Shown: positions 1,390-15,875 of the stretch, piece by piece
Position numbering within the stretch: position 1 is the stretch's first letter
How the letters are laid out: every line of letters starts with the position of its first letter
IMG/VR virus record: IMGVR_UViG_3300032093_007659
Location: 1 to 31,434 of that record
DNA length: 31,434 bases
Direction: 5' to 3' (one strand)
DNA from: a virus
Position numbers and translations under genes: made by a program
The notes under the pieces: model-generated
What the model saw: the letters and a program-made list of their open reading frames with translations, nothing else
What the model was told of the DNA's origin: nothing
Databases searched by the model: none

Positions 1390-2949
1390 TTACTTCTTAT
1401 AAAATATAAATATAGGTTCGTATTTGTAAAACTCACCATTTATCTTCATACTATTTTTTACATTTGATAAATCAACACCTGTCATTGGAGACATCGTCAT
1501 CTTTATCTTACCCTTATATTCCATACCTAATTCAGTAAGTATATCAATACTATCTTGCTCTAATGGATAAAAACTTTTACCAATTTTAATGTCCGCAATG
1601 TTCCAAAGAATATATCTATCATTTCGTAAGTATTCGTATGCGGTTGTTAAGGTAGGTCGTAAAAATCCATCTCTCCAACTTTCATAATTACTAAATTTCT
1701 TAAATGATTGGGTTTCATCATCGGAATACCTTTCTCTATCAAAATATGGAGGTGAAGTAAATATAAAATCTAATTGCCCTTTCCATTTTTGAAATCCAAC
1801 CTCATTACTAATAATCTCACTACCCGTTCTATAAATCTCATAGGTATTTTTATGCCCCCAAAATGGATTAGCCGCACCAGGTATACGCGAATTAAAAAAC
1901 TCAGCCAAATACTCATAACGAGTCTTACCTATTTCCTCAATATAATTTTCAGTATTCGGATCATTCCCAATATAGTGAAGGTTTCTATCATCTACACTCA
2001 ATGCCCCTAAAATTCTACCACCCCAACCGGATGATGGGTCATAAATGTTAATTTGCTTTTGCTCTTTAATATGGTTTGTAAATCTTTGATACAAATACTT
2101 CGCAGTAAGTGGAGGAAAGTTTACGGCTGCCTGTGTTCCCATTCCAATTCTAAATGCCGCAGTTGCCTCCGGAAATATAGTTTGACCTAATGGATACCAC
2201 TTTAATTGAATAGGTTGTTTTTCTAAATCAACTAATGAATCTATATCTTCGCCCCAATTAGCAGTTTTAAGAGATGAAATATGTTTATACTGAATTATAC
2301 CCGCTTTGTATAACTCTTTAACTTCTTCCGCAGTAATCGGTAAGGATTCAATTCGGCTATCGGTTTGAGCCAAACAAAAATCATGCCCTTCCCATACATC
2401 ACCACTCATCCATTTTTCAATCCATTCTTTTGCAGTTGGTAAATGTGAATTATGGTGTTCTTTATTTCCTTTTGCAAGAGTTTTTGAGAAACGATACATT
2501 GCATCTTGTCGAGTCAATCTCCTCATTTGTTTTGCAAATTCAGCGAGATATTCATCATTACAAAAAATATCGTAAATAGATGGTTTCGGTTTATCGTAAG
2601 TTGAACCACCGATACCCGTTTTATACATCGCAGGAAAGAACTGATTTACTGGTGTAGCAAATTTATTGAAATTAAAGATTACCTCATCACCGTCATCATC
2701 CTTTTCTTCGAACTTATCTACCTTATAGGTTTGTAATTTTGAAAATTGTTCAATAATCTCGGCTTCCGAAGAACCAATACGAGGAGGTGCACCCGTTTCA
2801 TTCCAAACTTCAACAACCGTTTTTCTGAACATTGTCACCCAATCTTCAAATTCTTTAAGTGTCATTTTAAGAACATCTTCATACTTTAAGTTAATATGAG
2901 GTTCATTAAAATAATCACACTTTTCGTAAAAATACTTCTTTTCTGACAT
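1390..2949 (-). CDS. DNA (N4-cytosine/N6-adenine) methyltransferase, TSPPY type
   Basis: The 519-aa protein has a C-terminal methyltransferase fold. An S-adenosylmethionine-binding motif I (DPSSGWGGRILG) lies near residue 304, and the catalytic motif IV TSPPYFD lies at about 398-404. The N-terminal 300 residues are not recognised and may serve in target recognition. The family transfers a methyl group to an exocyclic amino group of adenine or cytosine in DNA; in phages it usually protects against restriction. I chose ATG 2949 because a longer in-frame TTG at 2970 would overlap a strong promoter -7 element. The gene is the first of its own unit, with the tmRNA directly downstream. No cognate endonuclease is seen, so it is probably an orphan enzyme. 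Base specificity cannot be read from sequence. Confidence 0.85.
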   Translation of the reverse strand: MSEKKYFYEKCDYFNEPHINLKYEDVLKMTLKEFEDWVTMFRKTVVEVWNETGAPPRIGSSEAEIIEQFSKLQTYKVDKFEEKDDDGDEVIFNFNKFATPVNQFFPAMYKTGIGGSTYDKPKPSIYDIFCNDEYLAEFAKQMRRLTRQDAMYRFSKTLAKGNKEHHNSHLPTAKEWIEKWMSGDVWEGHDFCLAQTDSRIESLPITAEEVKELYKAGIIQYKHISSLKTANWGEDIDSLVDLEKQPIQLKWYPLGQTIFPEATAAFRIGMGTQAAVNFPPLTAKYLYQRFTNHIKEQKQINIYDPSSGWGGRILGALSVDDRNLHYIGNDPNTENYIEEIGKTRYEYLAEFFNSRIPGAANPFWGHKNTYEIYRTGSEIISNEVGFQKWKGQLDFIFTSPPYFDRERYSDDETQSFKKFSNYESWRDGFLRPTLTTAYEYLRNDRYILWNIADIKIGKSFYPLEQDSIDILTELGMEYKGKIKMTMSPMTGVDLSNVKNSMKINGEFYKYEPIFIFYKK

Positions 2950-2959
2950 TATGATTTTA

Positions 2960-2979
2960 TTAGTATTCAAAGATACTAA
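2960..2979. repeat. Inverted repeat over the -7 element (possible operator)
   Basis: TTAGTAT (2960-2966) and ATACTAA (2973-2979) form a perfect 7-bp inverted repeat around a 6-nt centre. The repeat covers most of the -7 box and part of the initiation region of the 2968-2999 promoter. It lacks a downstream T-run on either strand, so it is not a good terminator. A repressor site is one reading; chance in AT-rich DNA is the other. Confidence 0.35.
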
Positions 2980-4575: not shown

Positions 4576-5427
4576 TTAAATTAACTTACTTTTAGTATAA
4601 TTATCTTTCATATATTTTTTAATGTTCATTATTGGTTCATTCACATCTTTAAAAGTAGAATACAAATTATCATCGTATAACTTTAAAAAATCTTGATATA
4701 CCGAATGATGGTATTTTGTGGTATGATGTAATAAATCTCTTGCTAAAAGTGATTCATCGTCTCTACCATGCCATCCTCTACTACCTTCAATTACATAATA
4801 ATTTGCTCCAATTTCACTTGCCAACCCTCTTATCGCCGAAGTGTTTTTATGCCAATTTAATTCAACTTGCTCATTAGTTAAAAGAGACTCTTTCATTAGA
4901 TTACCAAATTTAGATTCCCAATTTTTATTATAGTTCGCGATAATATACCAGTGAGGTCTTCCATTTTCAATAAATTCATATCGAGGATACAATGGCGCAT
5001 AATGGAATATATTTTTTATTTTAAGTTCTTTATAAAAAGCAAATAATAATCTAAAATGGGTATCCGTTCCTGTACCCCCTATTCCCAAATTCCAAAATTT
5101 ACGACCTAATATTTTACTTAATTTATAAGACCATACATTTTCTAAATGATGACCTATTCCAAATGTATGAGAACACCCTAAATAAACATCACCTTCATCA
5201 TATGAATTAAAATCATCCGGAGTTCTAAATCCAGCATTATTTAGTTTGTATTCTATTGGATTTAATTCGTAATATTGAATACTGGGTTTATCCAGTTCTG
5301 AAATAATATGCCTATCCCAAAATTCCTTTGAATCAGTTGGTATATATTCATAAGTTTCATTCGGTTTTAAATTTAAATCATCTAATTCACATCTGTATTT
5401 TAGAATTTTATTTGTTAAATATTCCAT
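4576..5427 (-). CDS. SGNH/GDSL hydrolase-like protein
   Basis: The 283-aa protein has a block I GCSHTFG at 84-90 (nucleophile Ser86) and a block II NLGIGGTG near 113-120. A late RDLLHHTTKYH stretch may supply the DxxH catalytic pair. SGNH enzymes are esterases or acyltransferases, often acting on acetyl groups of glycans. The catalytic site is plausible but the family is not one I can name. The ATG follows the previous stop as TAA-T-ATG. The protein ends K-S-K-L-I, a variant of the C-terminal motif shared with 13 other proteins upstream. It is the last gene in the cassette to carry that motif. Confidence 0.65.
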   Translation of the reverse strand: MEYLTNKILKYRCELDDLNLKPNETYEYIPTDSKEFWDRHIISELDKPSIQYYELNPIEYKLNNAGFRTPDDFNSYDEGDVYLGCSHTFGIGHHLENVWSYKLSKILGRKFWNLGIGGTGTDTHFRLLFAFYKELKIKNIFHYAPLYPRYEFIENGRPHWYIIANYNKNWESKFGNLMKESLLTNEQVELNWHKNTSAIRGLASEIGANYYVIEGSRGWHGRDDESLLARDLLHHTTKYHHSVYQDFLKLYDDNLYSTFKDVNEPIMNIKKYMKDNYTKSKLI

Positions 5428-5428
5428 A

Positions 5429-6115
5429 TTAAATCAATGATTTTTTGAGTTTTATATTAGCTTTTCCAAAGTGTTTAATTGATTCAAATAATGTTTTAAG
5501 CTCACTATCTACAATTTTTAAATCAATCATAGATTTTTTAACAGCAATCCATATTATAATACCCTCCATAGCACCAGGTAAATCGTAAGCCAATTTTTGA
5601 TAAGGTCTAGTTTGCCTATCAATCTTTTCCCACCATTGAATAAAACTACGTTTTTTATCATTATCTTTTATATGCAAAACAAATTTACCTTCATGTATCA
5701 ATTCTAAAGCATCATCGGTTACGGTAGTAAGAATAGATAAATAATCTTTCATATATTCCAACGATCCATATACATCTCTCAATTCATCCAATCCAACTAT
5801 TTTCGATGCATGAAATCCTTCATCTATATGATTCAGTATAAAAAAATCCGCATCACTTTTGATAAATGTATCTGTATCTAAAAAAAATAGTGTATCAAAT
5901 TCAGTCAAAGCCTCCCCAATAACAATTCTTTTTAAATTGTAATTAAATGATTCCGATAATTTTATAACCCTATAAACACCTTCGATAATTTTTGAAGGAG
6001 AATCAGTTCCGACTATTATTTTAAAATCCTTATCTAAATCCAATATAGATTTTGCAACTATATTAAATTCATTAATATGTTCATCGCCGTATGCAAGAAA
6101 GCAAAAACAAAACAT
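5429..6115 (-). CDS. GT-A type glycosyltransferase
   Basis: The 228-aa protein starts with a Rossmann-like strand pattern, and FFLDTDTF puts a DxD motif at residues 80-82. That motif binds the metal and nucleotide sugar in GT-A glycosyltransferases. Later features, such as the AYDLPGAMEG segment near 177, resemble acceptor-side loops of GT8-like or capsule-type enzymes, though I cannot name the family. It probably transfers a sugar from a nucleotide donor in the cytoplasm. It overlaps its upstream neighbour by TAATG and ends K-K-S-L-I. Its neighbours (sulfotransferase, SGNH, epimerase) suggest glycan synthesis or decoration. Confidence 0.7.
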   Translation of the reverse strand: MFCFCFLAYGDEHINEFNIVAKSILDLDKDFKIIVGTDSPSKIIEGVYRVIKLSESFNYNLKRIVIGEALTEFDTLFFLDTDTFIKSDADFFILNHIDEGFHASKIVGLDELRDVYGSLEYMKDYLSILTTVTDDALELIHEGKFVLHIKDNDKKRSFIQWWEKIDRQTRPYQKLAYDLPGAMEGIIIWIAVKKSMIDLKIVDSELKTLFESIKHFGKANIKLKKSLI

Positions 6116-6774
6116 TATATAATCTTATTTAAAGTATTTTGTATTCTAACCTTTTTAGTTTCAGATAATATAAATTCATTATAATATGAATCTATTAAGT
6201 TTATTTCCAAATAATTAAATATTTTTTCTATCTCACCCTTTTTATAGGATTCGAATATATCTTCATAATAAAAAATGGGTTGTTCACATTTGATTGATAT
6301 ACTAGATAGTAATTTAGCGGATGCCGTATATCTATCTACCATATTTTGAATATATAAAGAATCTATTTCTGCTATATTGTATTTTTTTGGAGTATGCCAA
6401 TCTATGCCGTATTTTCTAAACATAGTTTCATTAAAAGCAAAACTTTCAGATTGTGCTAATTTATCAATTCTATCCAATAAAATTATTTTATCGAAAAATG
6501 ATATACACCAATCGAAATATGAATTCGAACTATTAAAAGATTTTAAAGGATACTCATTATTTTCAACTAATAGTAATGTTTTTACTAATAGATTATTACA
6601 ATTTTGCAATGGTATAATAGTTTGAAAATCGAATCCTTTGTTTTTATACAATTGATAAAAGTTTGGATTAAATGGTTCTATAAAAAGGGAATAATCCGGA
6701 TTTAAATGTGCATTTATTAATTTAGTTAAAGAGGTAGAACCACTTCTAGGAGTAGCCAAAACTAAAATTTTCAT
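6115..6774 (-). CDS. Sulfotransferase-like protein
   Basis: The N terminus MKILVLATPRSGSTSLTKLI carries a 5'-phosphosulfate-binding loop (TPRSGSTS, residues 8-15) typical of PAPS-dependent sulfotransferases. The total of 219 aa is short but within range. KIILLDRIDKLAQSES, in the middle of the protein, resembles the 3'-phosphate-binding region (hydrophobic strand, then R..d...S). The predicted reaction moves sulfate from PAPS to a hydroxyl or amine, acceptor unknown. A second sulfotransferase (9923-10711) and an APS kinase (15444-15875) in the same run support a sulfation role. It starts by ATGA overlap with the upstream oxygenase and ends L-N-K-I-I, a variant of the shared tail. Confidence 0.75.
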   Translation of the reverse strand: MKILVLATPRSGSTSLTKLINAHLNPDYSLFIEPFNPNFYQLYKNKGFDFQTIIPLQNCNNLLVKTLLLVENNEYPLKSFNSSNSYFDWCISFFDKIILLDRIDKLAQSESFAFNETMFRKYGIDWHTPKKYNIAEIDSLYIQNMVDRYTASAKLLSSISIKCEQPIFYYEDIFESYKKGEIEKIFNYLEINLIDSYYNEFILSETKKVRIQNTLNKII

Positions 6775-7289
6775 AAAATTGATTTTTCTTGCATTCTAAA
6801 TTTATGCAAAAACATAGCAATCGCCCATCTTTCACCACTTGTTATGGGAGTAACTTGATGAGGTGTCTGTGATTGATATATGCATACATTACCAATTTTT
6901 TTATTTATATAAATAGGATTATCGTTTTCATCAAAAATGAGATAATCCCCTCCCATAAAATTTTCGTTAAGAACAATACCTACATTCCATTCTTTTAAAG
7001 GTGATCCAGTATCTATGTGCTTACCAAATTCATCACCTATGGTATAATGATGTAAATTTAATTTTGTAGGTCGGGTATGGATTTTTAATTTAGTTTCATT
7101 TTCAAAAAAATCACACATTCTATTTATAATCCAATTTATATCATCTATAAATTCTAGTGCATAAAATTTATATTTGAAATTATCGAATATATCCCATCTA
7201 CCATTATCACCCAACAGAGGATACTTATATTTTAAGTCAATAATATATTCACATTCCTCTTGTGAAAATAAGATTGATTGATATAACAT
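6771..7289 (-). CDS. 2OG-Fe(II) oxygenase (prolyl 4-hydroxylase-like)
   Basis: The 172-aa protein has the double-stranded beta-helix iron triad His91-x-Asp93 and His144, with Arg154 for 2-oxoglutarate. The segment FMGGDYLIFD carries the GGD typical of the P4Hc/PKHD branch. These enzymes hydroxylate unreactive carbons of proteins, peptides or small molecules. It is one of six such enzymes in about 7.5 kb; four of them share the GG[D/E] layout. It lies directly downstream of a 45-aa ORF and of the ATP-grasp/Hint-like gene. It ends E-K-S-I-L with TGA overlapping the next ATG. The substrate is unknown. Confidence 0.85.
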   Translation of the reverse strand: MLYQSILFSQEECEYIIDLKYKYPLLGDNGRWDIFDNFKYKFYALEFIDDINWIINRMCDFFENETKLKIHTRPTKLNLHHYTIGDEFGKHIDTGSPLKEWNVGIVLNENFMGGDYLIFDENDNPIYINKKIGNVCIYQSQTPHQVTPITSGERWAIAMFLHKFRMQEKSIL

Positions 7290-7291
7290 AT

Positions 7292-7429
7292 TTAACTTAG
7301 ATGTCTATCTTTAATTTTATTAACTACCGTTTGAATAGCAGCATTTACTTTTACTTTAGTATCATTAGATAAAGCTACAATACTTGGCTTAATCGTTTGA
7401 ATCGGTCTATTAATTCTTATATCTGACAT
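7292..7429 (-). CDS. Small protein, 45 aa, unknown
   Basis: A 45-codon frame fills the gap between the ATP-grasp/Hint-like gene and an oxygenase gene. It begins ATG at 7429, 12 nt after the stop of the upstream gene, and its TAA lies 2 nt before the next ATG. The peptide is basic with a predicted amphipathic helix (VKVNAAIQTVVNKIKDRH), has no Cys and does not end in the shared K-S-L-I motif. The perfect fit between neighbours and coding-like composition support a real gene. A peptide substrate, leader or adaptor is possible but unsupported by any motif. Confidence 0.6.
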   Translation of the reverse strand: MSDIRINRPIQTIKPSIVALSNDTKVKVNAAIQTVVNKIKDRHLS

Positions 7430-7441
7430 AATTAAATTATT

Positions 7442-8935
7442 TTAAAGTTTAGGGGGTTGGCCGCCTCCGCCACAACCCGAACAGGTGTTGTCATAACAAT
7501 AGTTTCCACAATATGACCACGGACAATAACAACTATTGTGCATTACTGAAAAAACATCATCTCCGATATCAACCAAAAAAAGGTCGGATGGCTCGAAATC
7601 CAATCCGTAAACCATCATTTGAGCGTGTTCCATTTCTAAATTAGTTATTTCTAATGTCGATAATTGTTGTGTATTAGAATCGGTTACAACTAATTTATCA
7701 CCAATATACATTTGGTTTAGTTTTTCAAATCTTGTTGATGTTGAGCCGGATTCTTCAATATAGTATGTACACGATGGAGAATCTACCCAACTTTTACCAT
7801 CAGCTGTCGTTACCCTTATATAAATTGTATCTATTGATGAAGAAATAATTCCTTGTAAAGATGATGATGTTTGAAGTAAGGTTTCATTGGATTTTGATAA
7901 ACTACCACTCCATCCAAATACATTTAATTTACCTTCTTCAAAATTAGCAGCGTGATTATCGTTATAATCTACAAAATCTATTGAACGAATATAATCTCCG
8001 ATCTGTAAATCACTTGCATTAATAATTGAACCCGTATAATTAATAATTTTAGAGTCCATATCGGTGTGATAACTTTCAATTTTTTGATTCACACCAACTT
8101 CCTTTGTGATGTATTTCTGTCTACTCTTTTGAATTAATTTTCTATCAGCAGTAAATTCATTAGCTATAAAATCAATTGGTATTACAGTGGATTGCTTATA
8201 TCCACCCATACTGATTACTTCCAAATTACTACCATATATAACATCAATGCTTCTTATTATAGAATATTTATTATCCACTAAATTATCAGTTGAATATAAA
8301 AATTCTTGTATAAGGTATTCCGAAGTATTCGATGATTTTAATGAATCTAATTGAGATTGTGATTCTAATGAATATATTGATGGATATAATGCAGTATCAT
8401 AGCTAGGAGCCTGTGCTTTTACTATAACATTTGGTGTTCCATTGGTTTGAAAACTAACATTATTTAATGTATCCATACTAACTTCAGATGAACTAAAATA
8501 AGTTTTTGGTATATATTGGCTACCGCTCATCAGTTCACAGAATCCAAATTTATCAGCACAATACGAGTCATCAATCAATGCTGTCGTATCATACGATTGT
8601 CTTAATATAAATTTAGTAGGAGAATCTTCTATATATGGTACCGTAACAGAATTAAAAGGAACGATGTATTCATTAAAAGAAATGTTATTTTCATTACATT
8701 TTTGAACTAATTTTTCCTTAAATCGATATCTTTCATTAGATGGTGAATGGGAATCTCTTTCAGTATATATAAAATGAAATTCTGATATGTTATTCTGAAC
8801 TAACATATCAAATAACCCATCATATTCCAATAGTTCAGCTCCAGGATTATAAATGGTTGTATTTGTATTTATCTCTAAAATTTTTACATCATTATTGTAT
8901 TCCAATAAATCTGAACCCAATATTATTGCTTTCAT
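7442..8935 (-). CDS. ATP-grasp-like protein with C-terminal Hint-like motif and Cys-rich tail
   Basis: The 497-aa protein has three parts. Residues 1 to about 280 resemble an ATP-grasp fold: a pre-grasp strand at the N terminus, IPKTYFSSS, PNVIVKAQAPSYDTAL (candidate ATP-binding Lys) and YLIQEFLYS followed by IIRSIDVIYG. Residues about 300-467 look like a Hint/intein C-terminal half, with LQIGDYIRS, YIGDKLVV, MVYGLDFEPSD and a closing SVMHN at 463-467. No Cys or Ser typical of an N-terminal splice junction is evident, so splicing is unlikely, but Asn cyclisation and cleavage after Asn467 is conceivable. The last 30 residues hold six Cys, four Tyr, one Trp and a GGGG run, ending PPKL. It may be a peptide-ligase precursor or a virion protein; both readings are inference. 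Confidence 0.5.
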   Translation of the reverse strand: MKAIILGSDLLEYNNDVKILEINTNTTIYNPGAELLEYDGLFDMLVQNNISEFHFIYTERDSHSPSNERYRFKEKLVQKCNENNISFNEYIVPFNSVTVPYIEDSPTKFILRQSYDTTALIDDSYCADKFGFCELMSGSQYIPKTYFSSSEVSMDTLNNVSFQTNGTPNVIVKAQAPSYDTALYPSIYSLESQSQLDSLKSSNTSEYLIQEFLYSTDNLVDNKYSIIRSIDVIYGSNLEVISMGGYKQSTVIPIDFIANEFTADRKLIQKSRQKYITKEVGVNQKIESYHTDMDSKIINYTGSIINASDLQIGDYIRSIDFVDYNDNHAANFEEGKLNVFGWSGSLSKSNETLLQTSSSLQGIISSSIDTIYIRVTTADGKSWVDSPSCTYYIEESGSTSTRFEKLNQMYIGDKLVVTDSNTQQLSTLEITNLEMEHAQMMVYGLDFEPSDLFLVDIGDDVFSVMHNSCYCPWSYCGNYCYDNTCSGCGGGGQPPKL

Positions 8936-8976
8936 TTGTTACAATTATCTTTTTTCAACTATAAATATATATAAAC

Positions 8977-9282
8977 TTAAATTATTGATTTTTCACGCTT
9001 ATCCTCTATCTTTTCAATAAACCCATTATCACACTCTTCCCATTTTAGGAGTGGACAGCTATTATAAATTTTAGTAAATATTTTTTTATTAAGGGGGCAG
9101 CCACACCCTTTACAATATTCAGACCACTTTTGATTTTTTATGACGGATTTTTTTAATTCACATTTTGAACAAATAGAATACCTTCTTTCTGCTAATTTTT
9201 TCTCATCATCAGATGGGTTTCTGGCAGTTATCCATGCATTAAAAATTTCTTTATAATCGTATTTAATACCATTTATTTTCAT
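8977..9282 (-). CDS. Small Cys-rich, probably zinc-binding protein
   Basis: The 101-aa protein contains CSKC at 38-41, CKGCGC at 57-62, a further Cys76 in SCPLLKW and Cys84. This pattern of two CxxC pairs plus CGCPLNKK and CPxxxW occurs in small phage proteins of unknown function, and I read it as one or two zinc sites. It might bind nucleic acid or another protein. It ends E-K-S-I-I, the shared tail. A gap of 41 nt separates its stop from the next gene, so here the motif cannot be a by-product of a downstream start signal. Its ATG follows the previous stop after 9 nt. Confidence 0.75.
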   Translation of the reverse strand: MKINGIKYDYKEIFNAWITARNPSDDEKKLAERRYSICSKCELKKSVIKNQKWSEYCKGCGCPLNKKIFTKIYNSCPLLKWEECDNGFIEKIEDKREKSII

Positions 9283-9291
9283 AATAATTAA

Positions 9292-9921
9292 CTATAATAA
9301 AGAATTTGTTTTTAGGGGTTTTGCAACAAAATTTAAATTAAGTATATATCTACTACCTTTAGTTGGATAATTTGCGTGATGTGCATATCTCCCATCAAAA
9401 ACTAAACATCTTCCCATTTTTGGAGAAATTTTAGTCAATAGTTCAAAAGAATCTAAATTTACATTATCAAAATTTTCCATATACGTCTCTGCGTTATCTC
9501 CAAATTTATTACGATAAATACACGTATCACCATCTATATCATTAATATAATATACTGCAGCAATATGTTCTGCTATTCTATCATAGTGTAATAAATCAAT
9601 TGGGTTATACTCATAATTTAACGGAGATGTATGGTTAATTTTCCATCTGTAAGTGGTTACAAATTCTAATCCTATTTTTTTGGATATAATACGTTGTATA
9701 TTCTTAATTAGCTCATCTATTTGTTCGTTCTTACAGTCGATTTGAGGATGAACTTTTGCAGGAAATTTATGTGTATTTTTTTTACCACCGTAATTTCCTG
9801 TTATATTCTCTGTTTCATTCCATTTAATCTCACTATTGTTCGCATAGTTATATAAGATTTTTTGCTCATCTACTGATAGCAAATCGTCAAAAACTTCATA
9901 TATTTTGTCGGAATAAAGCAT
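9292..9921 (-). CDS. 2OG-Fe(II) oxygenase-like protein, 209 aa
   Basis: The likely iron ligands are His112-Tyr-Asp114 (LLHYDR) and His181 or His182 (YAHHANYP), with Arg191 (GSRYILNLNF) for 2-oxoglutarate. The layout differs from the P4Hc-type neighbours: it lacks GG[D/E] and has a longer insert with GDTCIYRN between the strands, so it is a separate subfamily. A hydroxylation reaction is expected; the substrate is unknown. The gene ends T-N-S-L-L with a TAG stop, one of the few non-TAA/TGA stops here. Its ATG lies 1 nt after the TAA of the upstream sulfotransferase-like gene. Confidence 0.75.
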   Translation of the reverse strand: MLYSDKIYEVFDDLLSVDEQKILYNYANNSEIKWNETENITGNYGGKKNTHKFPAKVHPQIDCKNEQIDELIKNIQRIISKKIGLEFVTTYRWKINHTSPLNYEYNPIDLLHYDRIAEHIAAVYYINDIDGDTCIYRNKFGDNAETYMENFDNVNLDSFELLTKISPKMGRCLVFDGRYAHHANYPTKGSRYILNLNFVAKPLKTNSLL

Positions 9922-9922
9922 T

Positions 9923-10711
9923 TTATATTAAGGTTTTAGTTGTTTTATGTAAATCATAGTAATCATAAATACTATTATATTTGACAACAAAATTGTCATC
10001 TAATGGTAGATTTGTTTTTATATTTTTACTAGAATTTACATATTGTATTTTAAATGGTTTTTTAGTTTTATCAGATACCCATTTATCTAAATCTTGCAGT
10101 TTATCAAATTCAAACCATATTATATTTGGGTTATGATTTGTCCAAAAAGAAATCGGAGTTAATAGGATATCAATTAGATTAACCAGATAACCATTCTTTT
10201 CTTTCCAATAATTTTCTTCGTTTTTTCTACTTGATAAAGTTACGTTAATATCGACCGGTTGGTTAATTAATTTTAATTCAATTAGATAATCTGAAATTTT
10301 ATCCCATCTCGTCTTTTTGCTAATTAAATCATCTTTTGTGAAAAAAAATAATTCATTCAAAGTAAAATGGGAAAACGTATCATAAAAATCTAAATAACCC
10401 AATCGTTTAAAATCGGATAACATATGTTTGTAGAATGAATAGAAACGCTCATGTCTTTCTCTATTAACCGCTATCACAGGAACATCAATACCAAATTTAG
10501 ATTGTAAATCTGAAATGGTTTCATGTCCATGAAATATATGATTCATTAAATCTTCTTTTTCAATTGAATTAAAATCAATATGTTCATTTGATACTTCCCA
10601 TTCACCATTATTAGTTTTTACGCCAATATTATTTATAATACAAGAATAGTGAAACGAAGTAGATGCACATCTCGGTAAACTTAAATATATAAACTTATTA
10701 TCTACTAGCAT
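9923..10711 (-). CDS. Sulfotransferase-like protein, 262 aa
   Basis: The N terminus FIYLSLPRCASTSF (residues 7-20) is a 5'-phosphosulfate-binding loop of the membrane-type sulfotransferase clan. VIAVNRERHERFYSFYKH (near 79-96) matches the 3'-phosphate-binding element with the conserved Arg and Ser. It should use PAPS to sulfate a carbohydrate, peptide or lipid hydroxyl. It differs from the shorter sulfotransferase at 6115-6774, so two acceptors or positions may be modified. It overlaps its upstream neighbour by TAATG and ends T-K-T-L-I. No transmembrane segment is seen, so action in the cytoplasm is likely. Confidence 0.75.
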   Translation of the reverse strand: MLVDNKFIYLSLPRCASTSFHYSCIINNIGVKTNNGEWEVSNEHIDFNSIEKEDLMNHIFHGHETISDLQSKFGIDVPVIAVNRERHERFYSFYKHMLSDFKRLGYLDFYDTFSHFTLNELFFFTKDDLISKKTRWDKISDYLIELKLINQPVDINVTLSSRKNEENYWKEKNGYLVNLIDILLTPISFWTNHNPNIIWFEFDKLQDLDKWVSDKTKKPFKIQYVNSSKNIKTNLPLDDNFVVKYNSIYDYYDLHKTTKTLI

Positions 10712-11280
10712 TATAATAGTGATTTGGTAACATTTTTAGATGGCCAAACATTTAAGGAATACCTATTTCTATTTTCTATCTTTTTGACAGAGTGACTTAT
10801 ATTAGAATCAAATATAAAAACGCTACCTATTTTCTTATTAATCGTATAAATGTTATTATCTATATTATATTGTATTTCACCTCCATCATAATCATCATTT
10901 AGTTGAATTATAAATGTAATCGTAGCTCCATTTAGTATTTCATGACTGTCAGAATGCCAATCTAAAAAATCTCCTACACCATATTTGTTAAAAGAGTATT
11001 TTTTAATATAGCTGTATTCTATTCCTTTAAATGGATTTAAATTATTTGATAAATTAATAATTTTATTTGTCAGGCTTTTTACAATAGGTAAATCAAGTTG
11101 TTCATTGAGAAAATAACACCCTAATCTTTTATTACCTGCATATTCCAGGTTTTCACCAACTAATTCTCCATTGACAAATTTTGAAGATTTCATTTGGATT
11201 AAATCAATTGAATTGCCCAAATTAATTAAAGAAATACATTCATCTTCGTTTAAAAAATTTTCAATATAGCTTGCAAACAT
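10711..11280 (-). CDS. 2OG-Fe(II) oxygenase (prolyl 4-hydroxylase-like)
   Basis: The 189-aa protein has YGVGDFLDWHSD with His109-x-Asp111, then YDGGEIQY (GG[D/E] motif), IGSVFIFDSNISH with His163, and RNRYSLNVW with Arg173. This is the complete iron and 2-oxoglutarate site of the P4Hc/PKHD branch. It resembles the enzyme at 13162-13719 closely in layout, so the two probably arose by duplication. It starts and stops with TAATG overlaps and ends T-K-S-L-L. Confidence 0.88.
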   Translation of the reverse strand: MFASYIENFLNEDECISLINLGNSIDLIQMKSSKFVNGELVGENLEYAGNKRLGCYFLNEQLDLPIVKSLTNKIINLSNNLNPFKGIEYSYIKKYSFNKYGVGDFLDWHSDSHEILNGATITFIIQLNDDYDGGEIQYNIDNNIYTINKKIGSVFIFDSNISHSVKKIENRNRYSLNVWPSKNVTKSLL

Positions 11281-11921
11281 TATATTATTGATTTTTCTTT
11301 TTTAATATATTCAAACCCAACATTCCCCGCTAATACTATTCTATCAATAGTTGAATTAGGAGCGTTGTTTGGAGAATGAGGCATATCTGCTTCCATTATG
11401 ATTAAATCATCCTCTTCAGGTCTAATCCAATACTCTTGACCATCTTTACCTTTAAAATATAATACACCATCTTCTCCATTCATTACATCTGGCATTTGAA
11501 TATAATAAACATAGGTATAGGATGGTGGAAATGATTTTGTTTTTTTATTGATTTCAGTATGAATATGAAACTTTTGATTATCATCGTAAAAGTTTGGTTG
11601 AATTGGATCTATAGATCTAACTACATTTACCCAAGCATCAATATTAATTTTATTAAAAGGTAAGTTATTTGTAGTGTAAAGTTCTTTACATAAATCTATG
11701 CCATTTTGAATAACTTCATCTAATTTACTTTTAATCTCAATTTTACCTATAAAATTTAAATTATTATTCCATTCCTTTTTATATCCAAATCCATCAGTTT
11801 TGACACCAGGTTGAGAGTCAATAACTGAATAGGCTTCTTTTAGAAATAATGATTTATCGGTTAATTTATTTAGTTTTGTTTTCCAAATAAAAGTGGTATC
11901 ATTAAAATATAACTTTTCCAT
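11280..11921 (-). CDS. Putative 2OG-Fe(II) oxygenase / cupin-like, 213 aa
   Basis: KFHIHTE (His119, His121, Glu123) and the later MPHSPNNAP (His182), followed by Arg194, suggest an iron-binding double-stranded beta-helix. This fits the family of putative 2OG oxygenases that carry a PHSPNN-like loop. Unlike its neighbours it has Glu rather than Asp as the probable acidic ligand and no GG[D/E]. Oxygenase chemistry is likely but the co-substrate is less sure. It sits directly downstream of the halogenase, overlapping by TAATG, which suggests that they act together. It ends K-K-E-K-S-I-I. Confidence 0.65.
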   Translation of the reverse strand: MEKLYFNDTTFIWKTKLNKLTDKSLFLKEAYSVIDSQPGVKTDGFGYKKEWNNNLNFIGKIEIKSKLDEVIQNGIDLCKELYTTNNLPFNKINIDAWVNVVRSIDPIQPNFYDDNQKFHIHTEINKKTKSFPPSYTYVYYIQMPDVMNGEDGVLYFKGKDGQEYWIRPEEDDLIIMEADMPHSPNNAPNSTIDRIVLAGNVGFEYIKKEKSII

Positions 11922-13162
11922 TAAATTAATTCTTTTTTTAATACTTTTTTATTTTTTCTAAAAATAGTTTGATAATTGTGTGTAAAGAATGTCAACATAT
12001 TTTGTGGAGTTTCTACTAAATCAAAGGATTTCAATAAATCTCTATCGTTTTTGATAATAATGTTGTTATCTTTATCTAGTATTTGTTTCAATTTTTTTGG
12101 AATTGGTTTATTATATGCATCAATCCAAAATTTGTTATCCAATCTTTCCGCTAAATAGTGGTATCTAACAAACATCATATTTTGCTCATTAATTTCTTCA
12201 CACCATTTATTGAACCCATCTTTATAATTTTCATCAAAGTTTTTATCAACCAATCTTTTAAGTTGCATAATAGTCGACATCAACGATGTTGCTTCTAATG
12301 GTTCTATAAACCCATATGATAATCCTATTGATATAGAGTTACCAATCCAACTTCTTTTATATCTACCTGGATTATAACTAAACACTTTTTGAATTTCTAT
12401 TTCATGCCCTAAATAGTCTTCAACTTCTTTTTTCGCATCTTCTACTGTTATATAATCTTTATTAAAAGAATAGCCACATCCCCATCTGTGTTGTAGTTCA
12501 ATTTGCCACATCCACCCACAACTCATAGCAACCATATTTGTATATGTCTTATCTTTAATTGTAAGTTTTTTATTTTGAGGTAGGAAAAATGCAATGCTAC
12601 TATTAATCATTAAATATTTTGAATAATCAACCCATTCCTCATTAAATAGATTTCCAACTAATCTATTAAATCCACTACAGTCAAAAACAAAATCAGAACT
12701 AATTATTCTATCATCTACTAATTTGAAACTTTTAATAAACTCACCTGTATTATTAATTGTTTCTATTTCCCCATCAATCCAATTAACACCCCTATCTATT
12801 GCTATTTGTTTAAAGTAATCTGCAACTTTTCTTGCATCAAAATGATAACCAAATGATTTTGTAAAAACAGTTGGCTCTTCACCTGTAAATAAATGTTTTG
12901 CTGTGCTACCATCTCCAAGCCAATTTATTAAGTTTAGCCCACGCTTATTTGTAGCACCTGTTTTTTCATAAAAATCTTTTTGATTTATACCTAATAATGA
13001 TAAAATTCTACCGAAGTTTGGTGTGCTTCCTTCGCCCGCTCCTAGTATTCCTATTTTGGAACTTTCTACCAATGTTACATTTGTATTTTCCCAAAATTTA
13101 TTTACTATTAGAGCAGTAAGCCATCCAGCAGTCCCACCTCCGATTATGATTATTTTTTTCAT
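11921..13162 (-). CDS. Flavin-dependent (tryptophan-type) halogenase
   Basis: The 413-aa protein has the FAD-binding GGGTAGW at 8-14, GEGSTPNF at 43-50, TGATNKRGLNL with the halogenase catalytic Lys73, a CGWMWQIEL block at 215-223 (W-x-W of the family; the usual WxWxIP has Glu in place of Pro), and GLSYGFIEPLEATS at 280-293. The family uses reduced FAD, oxygen and halide to make hypohalous acid, which the Lys carries to an electron-rich carbon such as an indole. It is shorter than the roughly 500-540 aa of free-tryptophan halogenases, so the substrate may differ. A flavin reductase is not seen here and would come from the host. It lies among 2OG oxygenases, joined by TAATG, and ends K-K-E-L-I. 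Confidence 0.9.
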   Translation of the reverse strand: MKKIIIIGGGTAGWLTALIVNKFWENTNVTLVESSKIGILGAGEGSTPNFGRILSLLGINQKDFYEKTGATNKRGLNLINWLGDGSTAKHLFTGEEPTVFTKSFGYHFDARKVADYFKQIAIDRGVNWIDGEIETINNTGEFIKSFKLVDDRIISSDFVFDCSGFNRLVGNLFNEEWVDYSKYLMINSSIAFFLPQNKKLTIKDKTYTNMVAMSCGWMWQIELQHRWGCGYSFNKDYITVEDAKKEVEDYLGHEIEIQKVFSYNPGRYKRSWIGNSISIGLSYGFIEPLEATSLMSTIMQLKRLVDKNFDENYKDGFNKWCEEINEQNMMFVRYHYLAERLDNKFWIDAYNKPIPKKLKQILDKDNNIIIKNDRDLLKSFDLVETPQNMLTFFTHNYQTIFRKNKKVLKKELI

Positions 13163-13719
13163 TATAATAATGTTTTCTTATAATTTTTTTGTGTTTCTAA
13201 TTCCAACCAATTAACAATTGAATACCTAACTCCATTTTTAATTTCTTTAATTCTATGTTTAGTTAAAGATGAAAATGCAAATAAATTACCTATTCCTTTT
13301 TTTAACGAATATACCTTACCATCAATTTCTAACTCTAATTCACCTCCTTCATATTCATCGTTAAGTTGAATTACAATTGTTAAAATTCGTTGATTATATA
13401 CATCATCTGAAGAATCGGTGTGCCAATTAAAATAATCTCCATTTTGGTATTTAGTAAATTGATAGTTTGAAATTTTGAAATTGTATCCTTTTATACCAAA
13501 GTATTCTTTTAGCTTTTTAATAATTCTATCATTAAGTTCTTCCAAATCGATTCCCGCAACTTTAGATTTTCTTTTACTAACATCAATAACATTATTCATT
13601 AATTTACTATCATACACTTCCGCTATTTTTAAAACCGATTCATTTACACACTTATTAAGTATCTGATTACATTCTTCTTTAGAGAATACATTTTCGAAAA
13701 CTTTAAATTTACCAATCAT
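13162..13719 (-). CDS. 2OG-Fe(II) oxygenase (prolyl 4-hydroxylase-like)
   Basis: The 185-aa protein has NWHTD with His100 and Asp102, EGGELEL (GG[D/E]), TKHRIKEI with His155, and GVRYSIVNW with Arg165, a complete P4Hc-type site. I start it at ATG 13719, which forms an ATGA overlap with the upstream stop. A longer frame begins at TTG 13755 but would add 12 residues inside the neighbour. It is very like 10711-11280 in spacing and motifs. It ends K-K-T-L-L and its TAA overlaps the halogenase start, so the two are coupled. Confidence 0.88.
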   Translation of the reverse strand: MIGKFKVFENVFSKEECNQILNKCVNESVLKIAEVYDSKLMNNVIDVSKRKSKVAGIDLEELNDRIIKKLKEYFGIKGYNFKISNYQFTKYQNGDYFNWHTDSSDDVYNQRILTIVIQLNDEYEGGELELEIDGKVYSLKKGIGNLFAFSSLTKHRIKEIKNGVRYSIVNWLELETQKNYKKTLL

Positions 13720-14234
13720 ATTAAAGAAAATTTTGATTGTTTTTTTGAAAACCAAACAATTAATACCTCTCGATTTCCTTTTGTAATCGGCTTTACTTCA
13801 TGAAAATCATTACCACCAAAGAAACTTACATATTCACCGTTTGTATTTAATTGTATCTTTTTATCATTTACATACATATCCCCTCCCTCAAATTCATCTG
13901 ATAAAATTATACTTACCGTTTTATGTGTTGCATATCTATCTTTATGTTTTTTCGCAAAATCACCTACACCATAGATGTGTTTATGTATCATATACAAATA
14001 CTCAATGGGTTCTTCTAATTTCTCACATAAAAAGTTGTTAAGATTTTTGTTTTTTAATGAATATATTATAGAATTTTCGGTAATAAGAGCCACATCATCC
14101 CCTTTTTCTCCAATATATGTGGAATAAAGTTGAGAATGTGCAGATTTTACGAACTTAATTTCATCATCATTCATCAATGGAGTTATTTCCAATTGAGATT
14201 TTAAATACAAAAAATCATCTAACAATAATTTCAT
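13716..14234 (-). CDS. 2OG-Fe(II) oxygenase (prolyl 4-hydroxylase-like)
   Basis: The 172-aa protein has YGVGDFAKKHKD with His97 and Asp99, FEGGDMYV (GG[D/E]), NDFHEV with His145, and GNREVLIVW with Arg155. It is the first oxygenase to be translated in this block and is linked on both sides by ATGA overlaps, upstream to an SGNH protein. It is more divergent than the 10711/13162 pair. It ends Q-S-K-F-S-L-I. Confidence 0.85.
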   Translation of the reverse strand: MKLLLDDFLYLKSQLEITPLMNDDEIKFVKSAHSQLYSTYIGEKGDDVALITENSIIYSLKNKNLNNFLCEKLEEPIEYLYMIHKHIYGVGDFAKKHKDRYATHKTVSIILSDEFEGGDMYVNDKKIQLNTNGEYVSFFGGNDFHEVKPITKGNREVLIVWFSKKQSKFSLI

Positions 14235-14854
14235 ATTATTTTATTTGTTTTAGATTGAAAGGCCACTAAATCATCTTTTATATCTAAAAAGGTATGCATT
14301 TTTTTATAAAATTCATAGCAACCTTTCCAACCAGGATGCCAATCCATAGGATCACCTCCTTCATCTGCAATCGAAGTAACCTGAATCAACTCAACAAAAT
14401 CAGAAGTCATCTTATGAAAATCTTCATTCCAGGTCACAAATACCGGAGAAAAATCATTATACAACTCTTTAAGTTTTTTTAAAAATAGTATTTCATTATT
14501 TCTTTCACCATTTAACCAATGTGATGTTTCGGATAATCTAACTTCTAATAATTTTTTTGCAAATTGTTTATCTTTATACCATTCCCAATTAAAATATTTT
14601 ATATGATGATGTGTTTCTCTTTCCCCAAAAAATCTTCTTGGAAATCTACCTGGTGCACTAAATACAATCACTAATCTATCACCATATTCGTATTTTGGAA
14701 TTAAACCTGTTTGATAAAGAATAGAATGATTATCCGCGCCAAATTTTCCTAACTTAATAACATTGTAGTGATTGGATAAATAATTAGTCCAATGAGTTTC
14801 AGGCATATCCCAATCTACAAAACTATCACCGCAAATGTAAATGCTAGGTTTCAT
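14231..14854 (-). CDS. SGNH/GDSL hydrolase-like protein, 207 aa
   Basis: YICGDSFVDW places a block I GDSF motif at residues 9-12. A late DPMDWHPGWKGCYEFY supplies a DxxH-type catalytic Asp-His pair and the typical helix after it. An esterase or acyltransferase acting on a glycan or lipid is expected. I start it at ATG 14854, 1 nt after the TAA of the preceding gene (TAA-T-ATG, a junction repeated elsewhere here). The upstream in-frame TTG 14878 would run into the neighbour. It ends K-T-N-K-I-I, a variant of the shared tail. Confidence 0.75.
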   Translation of the reverse strand: MKPSIYICGDSFVDWDMPETHWTNYLSNHYNVIKLGKFGADNHSILYQTGLIPKYEYGDRLVIVFSAPGRFPRRFFGERETHHHIKYFNWEWYKDKQFAKKLLEVRLSETSHWLNGERNNEILFLKKLKELYNDFSPVFVTWNEDFHKMTSDFVELIQVTSIADEGGDPMDWHPGWKGCYEFYKKMHTFLDIKDDLVAFQSKTNKII

Positions 14855-14855
14855 A

Positions 14856-15071
14856 TTAATTATCCTTTTTAAGGCCAAACTTTATCCACTTATACCAAAC
14901 TCTTTCGTGAAGATAATACTGAATAGGTTTATAGATTAATTCTGCTACACCAAATGCTGCACCAACTTTAATTGAGCCACTTACCCACCACATAATACCA
15001 AACCCTATTAGAGTTGAAACTATTCGATATGATATAGTTTTAGCTATGTGCCTCTTTCTCTCTACTATCAT
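14856..15071 (-). CDS. DUF2061-like small membrane protein
   Basis: The 71-aa protein has the form RKRHIAKTISYRIVSTLIGF...VGAAFGVAELIYKPIQYYLHERVW, which matches the DUF2061 family. Two hydrophobic segments are visible (about 17-33 and 36-48), so it should sit in the inner membrane. Its function is unknown. It overlaps the upstream nucleotidyltransferase by 32 nt, so tight coupling is likely, and it lies two genes downstream of the APS kinase, which hints at a link with sulfate activation. It ends KKDN, without the shared tail. Confidence 0.75.
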   Translation of the reverse strand: MIVERKRHIAKTISYRIVSTLIGFGIMWWVSGSIKVGAAFGVAELIYKPIQYYLHERVWYKWIKFGLKKDN

Positions 15072-15447
15072 CGTTATCTATATTATAAACAATTACATCA
15101 CCGTTAGAATCGATGTATTTTTTTCTAATCGCAGTTCCGCTTATGGCTTCGATTTCTTTCGGAGGAGTATGATATATTACCTCATATCCAACTGCTCTAC
15201 CATAGTTTACCGATTCGATATCTGGTATCACACTTATGTATATTTTCTTTGAGTTTTCTACAAAAAAAGGTTCTTTACACAAATCCATTAAAACCTGATG
15301 AGCAGACTTAGGATTGTTCTCATCTTTCGGAACATCTCTAATTGCTACCCAAACATCTTTCCCTTTATCCAATTGTTGGCGGATTAACCATTCGTGTCCG
15401 GCGTGCCAAGTCTGCCACCTTCCAATAAACATTGCATATTTTTTCAT
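15040..15447 (-). CDS. HxGH nucleotidyltransferase (cytidylyltransferase-like)
   Basis: The 135-aa protein has GRWQTWHAGHEWLI with the HxGH signature at 15-18, and AISGTAIRKK at 101-110, the second nucleotide-binding motif (ISxTxIR). These are the two marks of the HIGH-type nucleotidyltransferase superfamily, which includes NMN and pantetheine-phosphate adenylyltransferases, glycerol-phosphate cytidylyltransferases and, more distantly, ATP sulfurylase. The substrate cannot be named. It is joined by ATGA to the APS kinase, so it might supply APS or prepare another activated precursor. It ends KEAHS, without the shared tail. Confidence 0.75.
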   Translation of the reverse strand: MKKYAMFIGRWQTWHAGHEWLIRQQLDKGKDVWVAIRDVPKDENNPKSAHQVLMDLCKEPFFVENSKKIYISVIPDIESVNYGRAVGYEVIYHTPPKEIEAISGTAIRKKYIDSNGDVIVYNIDNDDSREKEAHS

Positions 15448-15875
15448 ATTAGTGATTTTAATCTTTGAAATGTTGTAAACTCATCCTCATCTGTCGTATC
15501 TACATCTATAAAGTTTTTCAACGGCGGTTCGTAGTTAGAAACGTGAAACGATTCTCTACCCCTTATATCGGTAGTATGAACATATAATTCTTTTATATTC
15601 TCACCCATTTCGGTTTTAAATGCTTCTCTTTGGTCTCTATAAGGAGAAACTAATGAGACAATTGCCACATTACCTTTGTGGTGAAAAAACTTAGCCATTC
15701 GTTGAGCAAGTTCTATGTTCTTTCTCCTTCCTGCTTCGGAGTAATCTTTATTATCAAATATGGCCCTTATATCATCTCCATCGATTACCATACCCCTCTC
15801 CCTAAAATGAGCTTGAAACCAATTTGCTAATGTAGTTTTCCCCGCACCTGGCTGACCCGTAAACCAATATATCAT
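15444..15875 (-). CDS. cysC: Adenylylsulfate (APS) kinase, short form
   Basis: WFTGQPGAGKTTLA contains the P-loop (7-14). DGDDIR at 32-37, DYSEAGRRKNI at 44-54 and VSLVSPYRDQRE at 73-84 are the APS-binding blocks of CysC. The protein is 143 aa, against about 180-210 for cellular CysC, and lacks part of the C-terminal region. It should phosphorylate APS to PAPS, the donor for sulfotransferases, two of which lie in the same run. It ends L-K-S-L-I, the same tail as the sulfotransferases and oxygenases, and is the most upstream gene that carries it. An alternative is a related small kinase with a different substrate. Confidence 0.85.
   Translation of the reverse strand: MIYWFTGQPGAGKTTLANWFQAHFRERGMVIDGDDIRAIFDNKDYSEAGRRKNIELAQRMAKFFHHKGNVAIVSLVSPYRDQREAFKTEMGENIKELYVHTTDIRGRESFHVSNYEPPLKNFIDVDTTDEDEFTTFQRLKSLI

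Follow-up and report, generated by a model that had tools for sequence, protein, structure and literature searches.

A common C-terminal tag on the enzymes of an aquatic phage cassette that encodes an ATP-grasp-like/HINT protein

Most enzymes encoded in a gene cassette of uncultured aquatic phages end in the same short peptide, with a consensus of roughly K-x-x-K-[ST]-[LI]-[LI]-COOH. The tag is real and extends far beyond the DNA in which it was noticed, and it is probably a common address label for a peptide-modifying machine. We studied IMG/VR record IMGVR_UViG_3300032093_007659, whose full 31,434 nt are called the window here; the cassette occupies its minus strand at 4576-15875 (Table 1). 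The first-pass annotation had reported [LI][LI] tails on 14 unrelated cassette proteins, and each is present at the gene to which it was assigned, with the described make-up (S/T third from the end in 10/14, K/N fourth from the end in 12/14). As it also claimed, the ending is absent from the other genes (0 among the remaining listed ORFs). Its denominator of 18 is reached only when the 45-aa ORF is counted, since 17 coding ORFs of at least 60 aa lie on this strand of the cassette. Set against 33/732 ORFs ending in [LI][LI] outside the cassette in three large related records, 14/18 gives a binomial p of 3.7e-16. Correction of the two probably overlong TTG starts would leave the C-termini unchanged.

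Table 1. Cassette genes in window coordinates, with the three parts of the central protein and the share of tagged proteins in the family
Product	Position	Strand	C-terminal tail	Basis and remarks	Tagged in family
Tagged, SGNH-like (first-pass name)	4576..5427	-	TKSKLI	No Pfam or PHROG match	
Tagged, glycosyltransferase-like (first-pass name)	5429..6115	-	KKSLI	No Pfam or PHROG match	
Tagged sulfotransferase	6115..6774	-	LNKII	Pfam Sulfotransfer_1, 22.3 bits (cut-off 22)	64/65 distinct members (family 4)
Tagged 2OG-Fe(II) oxygenase	6771..7289	-	EKSIL	Pfam 2OG-FeII_Oxy_3, 5.9e-10; match stops 10 residues short of C-terminus	
Untagged 45-aa ORF	7292..7429	-	KDRHLS	Directly after HINT gene	
Untagged central protein: ATP-grasp-like + HINT + Cys/Trp/Tyr-rich peptide	7442..8935	-		Fold matches, conserved columns	0/71
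Central protein, residues 468-497, peptide	7445..7534	-			
Central protein, residues 290-467, HINT/intein fold	7535..8068	-			
Central protein, residues 1-285, ATP-grasp-like	8081..8935	-			
Tagged, ~100 aa, Cys-rich, putative Zn protein	8977..9282	-	EKSII	PHROG 13558, unknown function; 41 nt to next ORF	54/60 strict, 60/60 with V/M/F allowed (family 5)
Tagged 2OG-Fe(II) oxygenase-like	9292..9921	-	TNSLL	Pfam E 2.4e-4, below cut-off	
Tagged sulfotransferase-like	9923..10711	-	TKTLI	Motif PRCASTSF read by eye; no Pfam match	74/79 (family 1)
Tagged 2OG-Fe(II) oxygenase	10711..11280	-	TKSLL	Pfam 1.8e-12	
Tagged 2OG-like	11280..11921	-	EKSII	Pfam 9.9e-5, below cut-off	57/69 strict, 67/69 with V/M/F allowed (family 3)
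Tagged flavin-dependent tryptophan halogenase	11921..13162	-	KKELI	Pfam Trp_halogenase 2.7e-84	
Tagged 2OG-Fe(II) oxygenase	13162..13755	-	KKTLL	Pfam 3.2e-14; TTG start probably too long	
Tagged 2OG-Fe(II) oxygenase	13716..14234	-	KFSLI	Pfam 8.2e-6, 27.1 bits (cut-off 27)	
Tagged, SGNH-like (first-pass name)	14231..14878	-	TNKII	No Pfam match; TTG start probably too long	5/5 (family 48)
Untagged DUF2061 membrane protein	14856..15071	-		Pfam 1.1e-15	0/42 (family 8)
Untagged nucleotidyltransferase-like	15040..15447	-		PHROG 10255 and 395	0/39 (family 9)
APS kinase, tagged in window	15444..15875	-	LKSLI	Pfam APS_kinase 7.1e-19	3/29 (family 10)

Related loci tell the same story on a larger scale. 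Across 142 overlapping IMG/VR loci, 588/631 distinct proteins of 15 core families (picked after their tails had been seen, and including 2OG oxygenases, halogenases and sulfotransferases) end in [LI][LI], against 9.35% of 1016 non-core ORFs of these loci. Among the 631, S/T stands at -3 in 60% and L/I at -1 in 97%, and Lys is frequent at -4 (57%) and -7 (51%). Tagging is densest near the HINT gene: 73-94% of distinct neighbours carry the tag within four genes of it and 0-27% at nine or more genes. In a second cassette, L009, with a partly different gene set and a halogenase 68% identical to that of the window, four orthologues keep their tails (window/L009: KKELI/KKELI, EKSII/EKSLL, TKSLL/KKSII, TKTLI/MTLI), while its APS kinase ends in FIEL versus KSLI in the window. 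All 31 cassette rows of the halogenase alignment end in [LI][LI], as opposed to 0/5 non-cassette rows. Among cyanophages and pelagiphages, 2OG oxygenases and PrnA-like halogenases of the same superfamilies occur in Kyanoviridae. The annotation had named untagged orthologues in similar clusters, or equal frequency elsewhere in the genome, as evidence against a tag; 0/14 oxygenases and halogenases from named phages, selected through a tblastn match or their annotation, and 0/4 halogenases of the HINT-less loci L101-L104 end in this way, next to the 33/732 in the rest of the records.

The distribution has ragged edges. Some families contain both tagged and untagged members (8/13 tagged in radical SAM family 21, 7/17 in family 14, 3/29 for APS kinase), core family 63 (4/4 tagged) sits outside the run of tagged genes, and at HINT-less loci 36/45 core proteins are tagged by the strict definition; these three observations count against recruitment to a single precursor. 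Most of the HINT-less loci with tagged core proteins look like contig fragments.

The [LI][LI] pair stands exactly at the end in 561/601 proteins, and looking for it 1-5 residues further inwards leaves only 1 to 13 of the 601. With 16 nt or more before the following listed ORF (ORFs being listed from 50 aa upwards), 92% of 107 are tagged, as are 7/7 at gaps above 150 nt. Because the pair occupies the exact C-terminus and persists across such gaps, the constraint is on the peptide, as had been proposed.

The annotation passed over the untagged gene at the centre of the cassette, together with the small ORF that follows it. Residues 1-285 of the central protein are modelled (pLDDT 89) as an ATP-grasp-like domain with a predicted fold similar to YgiC and glutathione synthetase. 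The closest structure is 7uk8 (Z 10.2, rmsd 4.2, 213 aligned), 1m0w reaches Z 9.9, and the rows after 7uk8 all belong to the GSS/GspS/YgiC group; the Foldseek top match is 3k1t (E 1.4e-4, the sole one below 0.001). This group consists of circularly permuted ATP-grasp ligases, but here a HINT domain and a peptide follow in one polypeptide. Six residues, which may include nucleotide- and metal-binding positions, are invariant in 58 central-protein sequences (Asp9, Glu21, Asn23, Lys173, Glu211 and Arg228). Residues 290-467 have a predicted HINT/intein fold (1at0, Z 15.4, rmsd 2.6, 142 aligned; 2lwy, Z 15.2, rmsd 2.2) and end in His466-Asn467, also invariant in the 58. Fold and terminal His-Asn are shared with inteins, bacterial intein-like domains and hedgehog proteins; unlike in that superfamily, His stands at residue 290 in 90% or more of the 58 (the equivalence of this residue to intein residue 1 rests on aligned ranges, which start there in many rows), the +1 residue can be S, T, P, G, A, N, Q or yet another, and only a peptide of ~30 residues follows in most members. 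A splicing intein has a Cys or Ser nucleophile at position 1 and Cys, Ser or Thr at +1; with His at the first and P, G, A, N or Q occurring at the second, the central HINT domain does not qualify as one. Absence of the usual first-position nucleophile also speaks against the recruitment reading given below.

Residues 468-497 form a Cys-rich peptide, variable between phages and predicted to be disordered (pLDDT below 50 at 469-497), which is a putative core peptide. The first 22 residues of 35 distinct peptides contain 26.5% Cys, 13% Trp and 12% Tyr. A halogenase is found in 29/31 cassettes whose peptide has C[WY]C versus 0/4 without it (p = 3e-4, uncorrected for kinship). Downstream of the HINT gene a 25-60 aa ORF is present in 71/71 cases, with a recognisably conserved K..HL-type end in 67/71.

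We lean towards a RiPP-like pathway in which a common C-terminal address tag recruits the enzymes; its receptor, cleavage and product are what we infer. The central protein would be the precursor of a modified peptide, on which the tagged halogenase, 2OG oxygenases and sulfotransferases, and in relatives the radical SAM enzymes, methyltransferases and glycosyltransferase-like proteins, would act. The tag would bring them to the peptide by binding one common site. Candidate hubs are the central protein, which was also the bait of our search for cassettes, and the small ORF product, both untagged and in every cassette examined; we favour the former. The HINT domain of the central protein, with His at intein residue 1 and the His-Asn end kept, might free the peptide through Asn cyclisation. 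The tag is mostly missing from apparent supplier or auxiliary proteins (APS kinase, DUF2061 and the nucleotidyltransferase-like protein, a possible supplier of activated sulfate). Some tagged families, such as the SGNH and Zn proteins, have no obvious peptide chemistry, which sits awkwardly with recruitment. In L134, L136, L139, L140 and L144 the tags are kept although identity to the window's ATP-grasp-like domain is only 29-35%, and in three of these loci (L139, L140 and L144) the small ORF, too, differs greatly. This would mean that the docking site is strongly conserved or that the receptor is somewhere else. The most specific form of the proposal, a private phage C-terminal address code that docks tailoring enzymes on an ATP-grasp-HINT precursor bearing, and itself releasing, their substrate peptide, is tentative, and we regard it as possible rather than likely.

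The cassette resembles RiPP clusters in that the gene of a protein with a variable Cys/Trp/Tyr-rich peptide at its end is clustered with those of many tailoring enzymes of peptide type: the variable peptide comes after His-Asn, and in 24 well-flanked HINT loci (three near-identical to the window) families 0, 1 and 3 occur in 24/24 and families 4, 5 and 6 in 23/24. It differs in being phage-borne, in a precursor that carries ATP-grasp-like and HINT folds, and in the single C-terminal tag on most of the likely tailoring enzymes. The RiPP clusters closest to it include the proteusin/flavin brominase type; a flavin brominase that acts on a RiPP precursor is described (PMC10858898).

Neither GenBank phages nor pattern scans of GTDB genomes yielded a relative of the central protein. 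The profile PF07068 of the gp23 major capsid family, a mark of T4-like phages, scores above cut-off in 3/6 records and weakly in a fourth; there is no match in G003 or in G006, the latter being the record with the cassette of the window. The annotation had compared the tag with class I PDZ ligands. A free carboxylate and the [ST]-x-hydrophobic form bear this out, and shared docking or targeting is the best reading; a PDZ receptor of phage origin found no support, with 0 matches to PDZ_2 and PDZ_6 in 10 possibly incomplete records and matches in 14/14 control genomes. A PDZ protein supplied by the host may be the receptor.

Peroxisomal PTS1 signals and encapsulin cargo peptides are short C-terminal sorting signals on unrelated proteins, and like PDZ ligands they share with the tag a short motif with a free carboxylate. 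The tag could thus direct enzymes to a place (the membrane, a phage-made compartment, the virion or capsid) and not to a precursor. Some central-protein variants, those of L134-L138, have a tail-fibre S74-chaperone-like C-terminus, recognised by eye, which is in line with this. We consider it unlikely, since unlike those signals the tag is concentrated in one phage cassette, around the HINT gene, and the auxiliary-looking proteins there mostly lack it.

It is quite improbable that the tag carboxylate is a substrate, conjugated covalently by the ATP-grasp-like domain to the peptide, the small ORF product or an amino acid. Such chemistry would suit the likeness to YgiC, glutathione and glutathionylspermidine synthetases (weaker for tubulin tyrosine ligase, Z 6.4), the confinement of the tag to free C-termini and the six invariant residues; however, there is no known substrate, and the role of these residues in an active site is putative. 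A protease signal, limiting enzyme life or trimmed after assembly, has a slimmer chance still. Tsp/Prc- and Clp-type proteases recognise hydrophobic C-termini, and no receptor of the tag is known, but this by itself leaves unexplained both the untagged auxiliary proteins of the same cassette and how often Lys stands at -4 (57%) and -7 (51%). Functionless spread by gene-end recombination or common ancestry is very improbable: cassette genes are indeed reshuffled among phages, yet the motif is kept in orthologues 52-68% identical while codons and preceding residues differ, and it is found on members of several Pfam superfamilies. Finally, the idea that the motif acts in DNA or RNA to start the following gene (by translation coupling or as an A/T-rich start region) is already contradicted and deserves next to no credence: many genes overlap, and 98% of ATGA overlaps use ATA for Ile, so that overlap does shape codon choice, but tags persist across wide gaps, where ATA is at background (48% versus 46% at gaps of at least 16 nt), tag Ser is encoded by TCN and AGY alike, Ser, Thr and Leu codons are near background use, and the motif is rare elsewhere in the same records.

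If such an address code exists, ribosomal peptide biosynthesis would have a new principle for recruiting its enzymes. Should the tag recruit to one precursor, a few residues would make a portable address for halogenases, oxygenases, sulfotransferases, radical SAM enzymes and methyltransferases, and these phages would be a reservoir of varied, uncharacterised peptides. The C-terminus alone could serve to find further members, and the targets of the 2OG oxygenase and halogenase clusters in these uncultured phages become directly testable.

All 14 tails that the first-pass annotation had read in the window are encoded exactly as written in the ORF translations between 4576 and 15875, and its proportion of 14 in 18 holds when the 17 coding ORFs that reach 60 aa are counted together with one 45-aa ORF. 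The terminal pair of leucine or isoleucine residues ([LI][LI], commonly K-[ST]-[LI]-[LI]-COOH, hereafter the tag) is absent from every other listed ORF of the window. Three large related records supply the background rate, 33 tagged among 732 ORFs that lie beyond the cassette; at this rate the binomial probability of 14 tagged proteins in 18 is 3.7e-16. The tag is a short extension, since six 2OG oxygenases encoded in the window have Pfam matches that stop 10 to 13 residues short of the C-terminus.

The IMG/VR loci fetched first contain the halogenase gene region in seven near-identical copies and a single diverged one, L009, in which halogenase identity is 68% and the gene set is partly different. 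The halogenase tail KKELI is identical in the window and L009, and three other orthologue pairs end in EKSII/EKSLL, TKSLL/KKSII and TKTLI/MTLI, respectively, with different residues immediately preceding the motif; the APS kinase is tagged in the window and untagged in L009. Three more scans of viral_contigs, the first of which contributed 80 of its 101 matches, enlarged the set to 144 loci. Counts were made on 142 of them, leaving out the window itself (L001) and a named phage (L010), and many of the 142 are overlapping pieces of the same contigs. Clustering of their 1647 distinct ORF products (minimum length 50 aa) gave 404 families. The tag ends 588 of 631 distinct proteins in 15 core families, chosen after the tails had been seen, and 9.35% of the remaining 1016 distinct ORFs; all such counts concern sequences related by descent, hence not independent events. 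Since tails guided the choice of core families, the measure free of this bias is the gradient of tagging around the gene of a HINT-domain protein (the central protein): 73–94% of distinct neighbours are tagged within four genes of it, and 0–27% at nine or more. When V, F and M are also allowed, 593 of 601 core proteins fit in loci with the HINT gene and 40 of 45 in loci without it, the five misfits of the latter including four halogenases (L101–L104) that lie in other contexts.

Three whole records gave 8/19, 12/22 and 14/26 tagged ORFs in generous windows around the cassette and 13/360, 11/229 and 9/143 outside it. In Pelagibacter phage HTVC008M and six cyanophage regions, 2 of 178 ORFs carry the terminal pair, and the tag is found in none of their 14 oxygenases and halogenases selected by tblastn match or annotation, three of which are phytanoyl-CoA dioxygenase-like. 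The comparison of orthologues inside and outside such clusters, proposed in the first-pass annotation, came out in favour of the tag: in a halogenase alignment 31 cassette members end in it and five non-cassette relatives do not. Far from the cassette, four SGNH/GDSL-like proteins of two large related records (Table) have tag-like tails (KPNII, TNKLI, NGKLI, EINLL); other SGNH-like proteins of the same records end without them.

The window had suggested that the constraint lies on the peptide, and the larger set bears this out, since tagging is independent of the spacing to the next ORF and codons are near background. Proteins are tagged at 94% of 327 overlaps of 1–4 nt, 88% of 43 gaps of 31–60 nt, 97% of 39 gaps of 61–150 nt and 7 of 7 beyond 150 nt, the gap being measured to the next listed ORF of at least 50 aa. 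Of 601 core proteins that have an ORF downstream, 561 end in the hydrophobic pair; at positions shifted one to five residues towards the N-terminus, such a pair occurs in just 1 to 13 of them. Within the tag, codon choice for S, T and L is near that of the gene bodies, and serine is encoded by both TCN and AGY. The sole effect of DNA on the tag is seen at ATGA overlaps, where the isoleucine codon is ATA in 98% of cases; at gaps of at least 16 nt the ATA share is 48%, versus a background of 46%. A start signal at the DNA level, suspected at first as upstream regions are A/T-rich, was rejected on the spacing, codon and end-position data. The tail profile (n = 631) has K at –7 in 51% and at –4 in 57%, S or T at –3 in 60%, L at –2 in 75% and I at –1 in 70%. 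As firmly as sequence can establish it, the tag is a genuine signal at the peptide level, confined to the C-terminus and common to functionally linked enzymes.

Tagged families include a tryptophan halogenase, 2OG oxygenases, Sulfotransfer_1, GDSL, radical SAM proteins and methyltransferases, several of them below the Pfam cut-off; among radical SAM proteins, the family with a SPASM domain carries the tag in only 8 of 13 members. Families 1, 4, 5 and 13 were without a Pfam match in searches with their representatives, and family 20 had only a DUF below cut-off; the names sulfotransferase-like (family 1), Zn protein (family 5) and glycosyltransferase-like (families 13 and 20) were assigned by eye. 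Neither the Zn protein nor one sulfotransferase-like protein (Table) has a match in GenBank phages. Auxiliary-looking proteins are mostly untagged: DUF2061 in 0/42, nucleotidyltransferase-like in 0/39, APS kinase in 3/29 and carbamoyltransferase in 2/20. The window's APS kinase is among the few tagged exceptions in a family whose commonest ends in the fetched loci are IDL, LDL, LFL and LSL.

Since the HINT gene was used as the search bait, all 24 loci flanked by 6 kb or more on either side (three near-identical to the window) contain it by construction; families 0, 1 and 3 accompany it in 24/24 and families 4, 5 and 6 in 23/24. The central protein is untagged in 71/71 family members. Its model, built on an alignment of 58 members, has a mean pLDDT of 81, with residues 469–497 disordered. 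In structure comparison, residues 290–467 of the model match inteins, bacterial intein-like domains and hedgehog at Z about 15; by aligned range a conserved His aligns with intein residue 1, and His466-Asn467 is invariant in the alignment. Modelled alone (pLDDT 89), the N-terminal domain matches YgiC (Z 10.2), glutathione synthetases (to 9.9) and glutathionylspermidine synthetase (9.1), a group of circularly permuted ATP-grasp ligases; with Foldseek alone, a putative gamma-glutamylcysteine synthetase was the one hit under E 0.001. Most members have, after His-Asn, a variable peptide some 26 to 33 residues long (for example SCWCPWNYCGHWCNSWYC...), and the first 22 residues of 35 distinct peptides contain 26.5% Cys, 13% Trp and 12% Tyr. 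Of 31 cassettes with a C[WY]C motif in the peptide 29 encode a halogenase, as against none of the 4 that lack the motif (Fisher P = 3e-4, uncorrected for kinship). Three distinct long variants (L134–L138) end, after a Cys-containing stretch, in a tail-fibre-like S74 chaperone domain named by eye, which hints that the product may belong to a fibre. A PDB sequence search with the central-protein profile gave nothing significant (best E 0.37), and no relatives were found in 50,697 GenBank phage records or by two short-pattern scans of GTDB genomes, a kind of scan that can miss distant relatives. Directly after the HINT gene an ORF of 25–60 aa is present in 71/71 cases, with a K..HL-type end in 67; the ORF itself differs in the other four.

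Coordinates of features in the window and in two large related records (G001, G003)
Feature	Record	Position	Strand	Remarks
tmRNA gene	window	1006-1387	-	Rfam RF00023, 110 bits; tag peptide ends AVAA
DNA methyltransferase-like ORFs (two)	window	1390-2970 and 26352-27683	-	SPPY/CPPY motifs, by eye
Small ORF	window	7292-7429	-	45 aa; under the 60-aa ORF limit, absent from the first-pass annotation
HINT gene (central protein)	window	7442-8935	-	untagged
Sulfotransferase-like protein	window	9923-10711	-	
SGNH/GDSL-like proteins	G001	168514-169251, 265415-266065		far from cassette
SGNH/GDSL-like proteins	G003	64824-65459, 97991-98635		far from cassette

Recruitment of the enzymes to a common hub by the tag would fit this distribution best, because peptide-type enzymes are tagged, most auxiliaries are not, and tagging is centred on a precursor-like gene. 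Two untagged products are present in every cassette examined, the central protein and that of the small ORF. We favour the central protein as the hub, since its predicted fold is kept in divergent cassettes whose small ORF is unrecognisable. The small ORF product may instead be the tag receptor; however, in L139, L140 and L144 it is very different, yet the neighbours stay tagged. For the docking to a PDZ-like receptor proposed earlier, a receptor of phage origin is not supported: PDZ_2 and PDZ_6 were found in none of 10 phage records, with control genomes positive in 14/14, so that such a receptor, if any, would more likely be the host's. The tag may also target proteins to a compartment or the virion, or act as a protease signal, or its carboxylate may be ligated by the ATP-grasp-like domain.

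A T4-type gp23 capsid gene is over the cut-off in three of six large records, with a weak match in a fourth; the record holding the window's own cassette, which may be a fragment, has no gp23 match. Start regions are rich in A, and Shine-Dalgarno motifs are modestly enriched in them (41/211 versus 9/211 shuffled); one relative has a Bacteroidota-type lipoprotein, recognised by eye. These features are too little evidence for naming any host. A defence system was considered and rejected, PADLOC returning for 10 proteins one weak generic 2OG match only.

The pathway logic of the cassette is like that of RiPP biosynthesis, in which a flavin brominase acting on a RiPP precursor is described (PMC10858898). 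In the open-access PMC literature we found no account of the cassette, its tag or an ATP-grasp-HINT-peptide precursor, nor of a C-terminal tag shared by the tailoring enzymes of one cluster. If RiPP membership were proven, the phage cassette could count as a new RiPP class. Even then the shared tag would have, to our knowledge, no counterpart.
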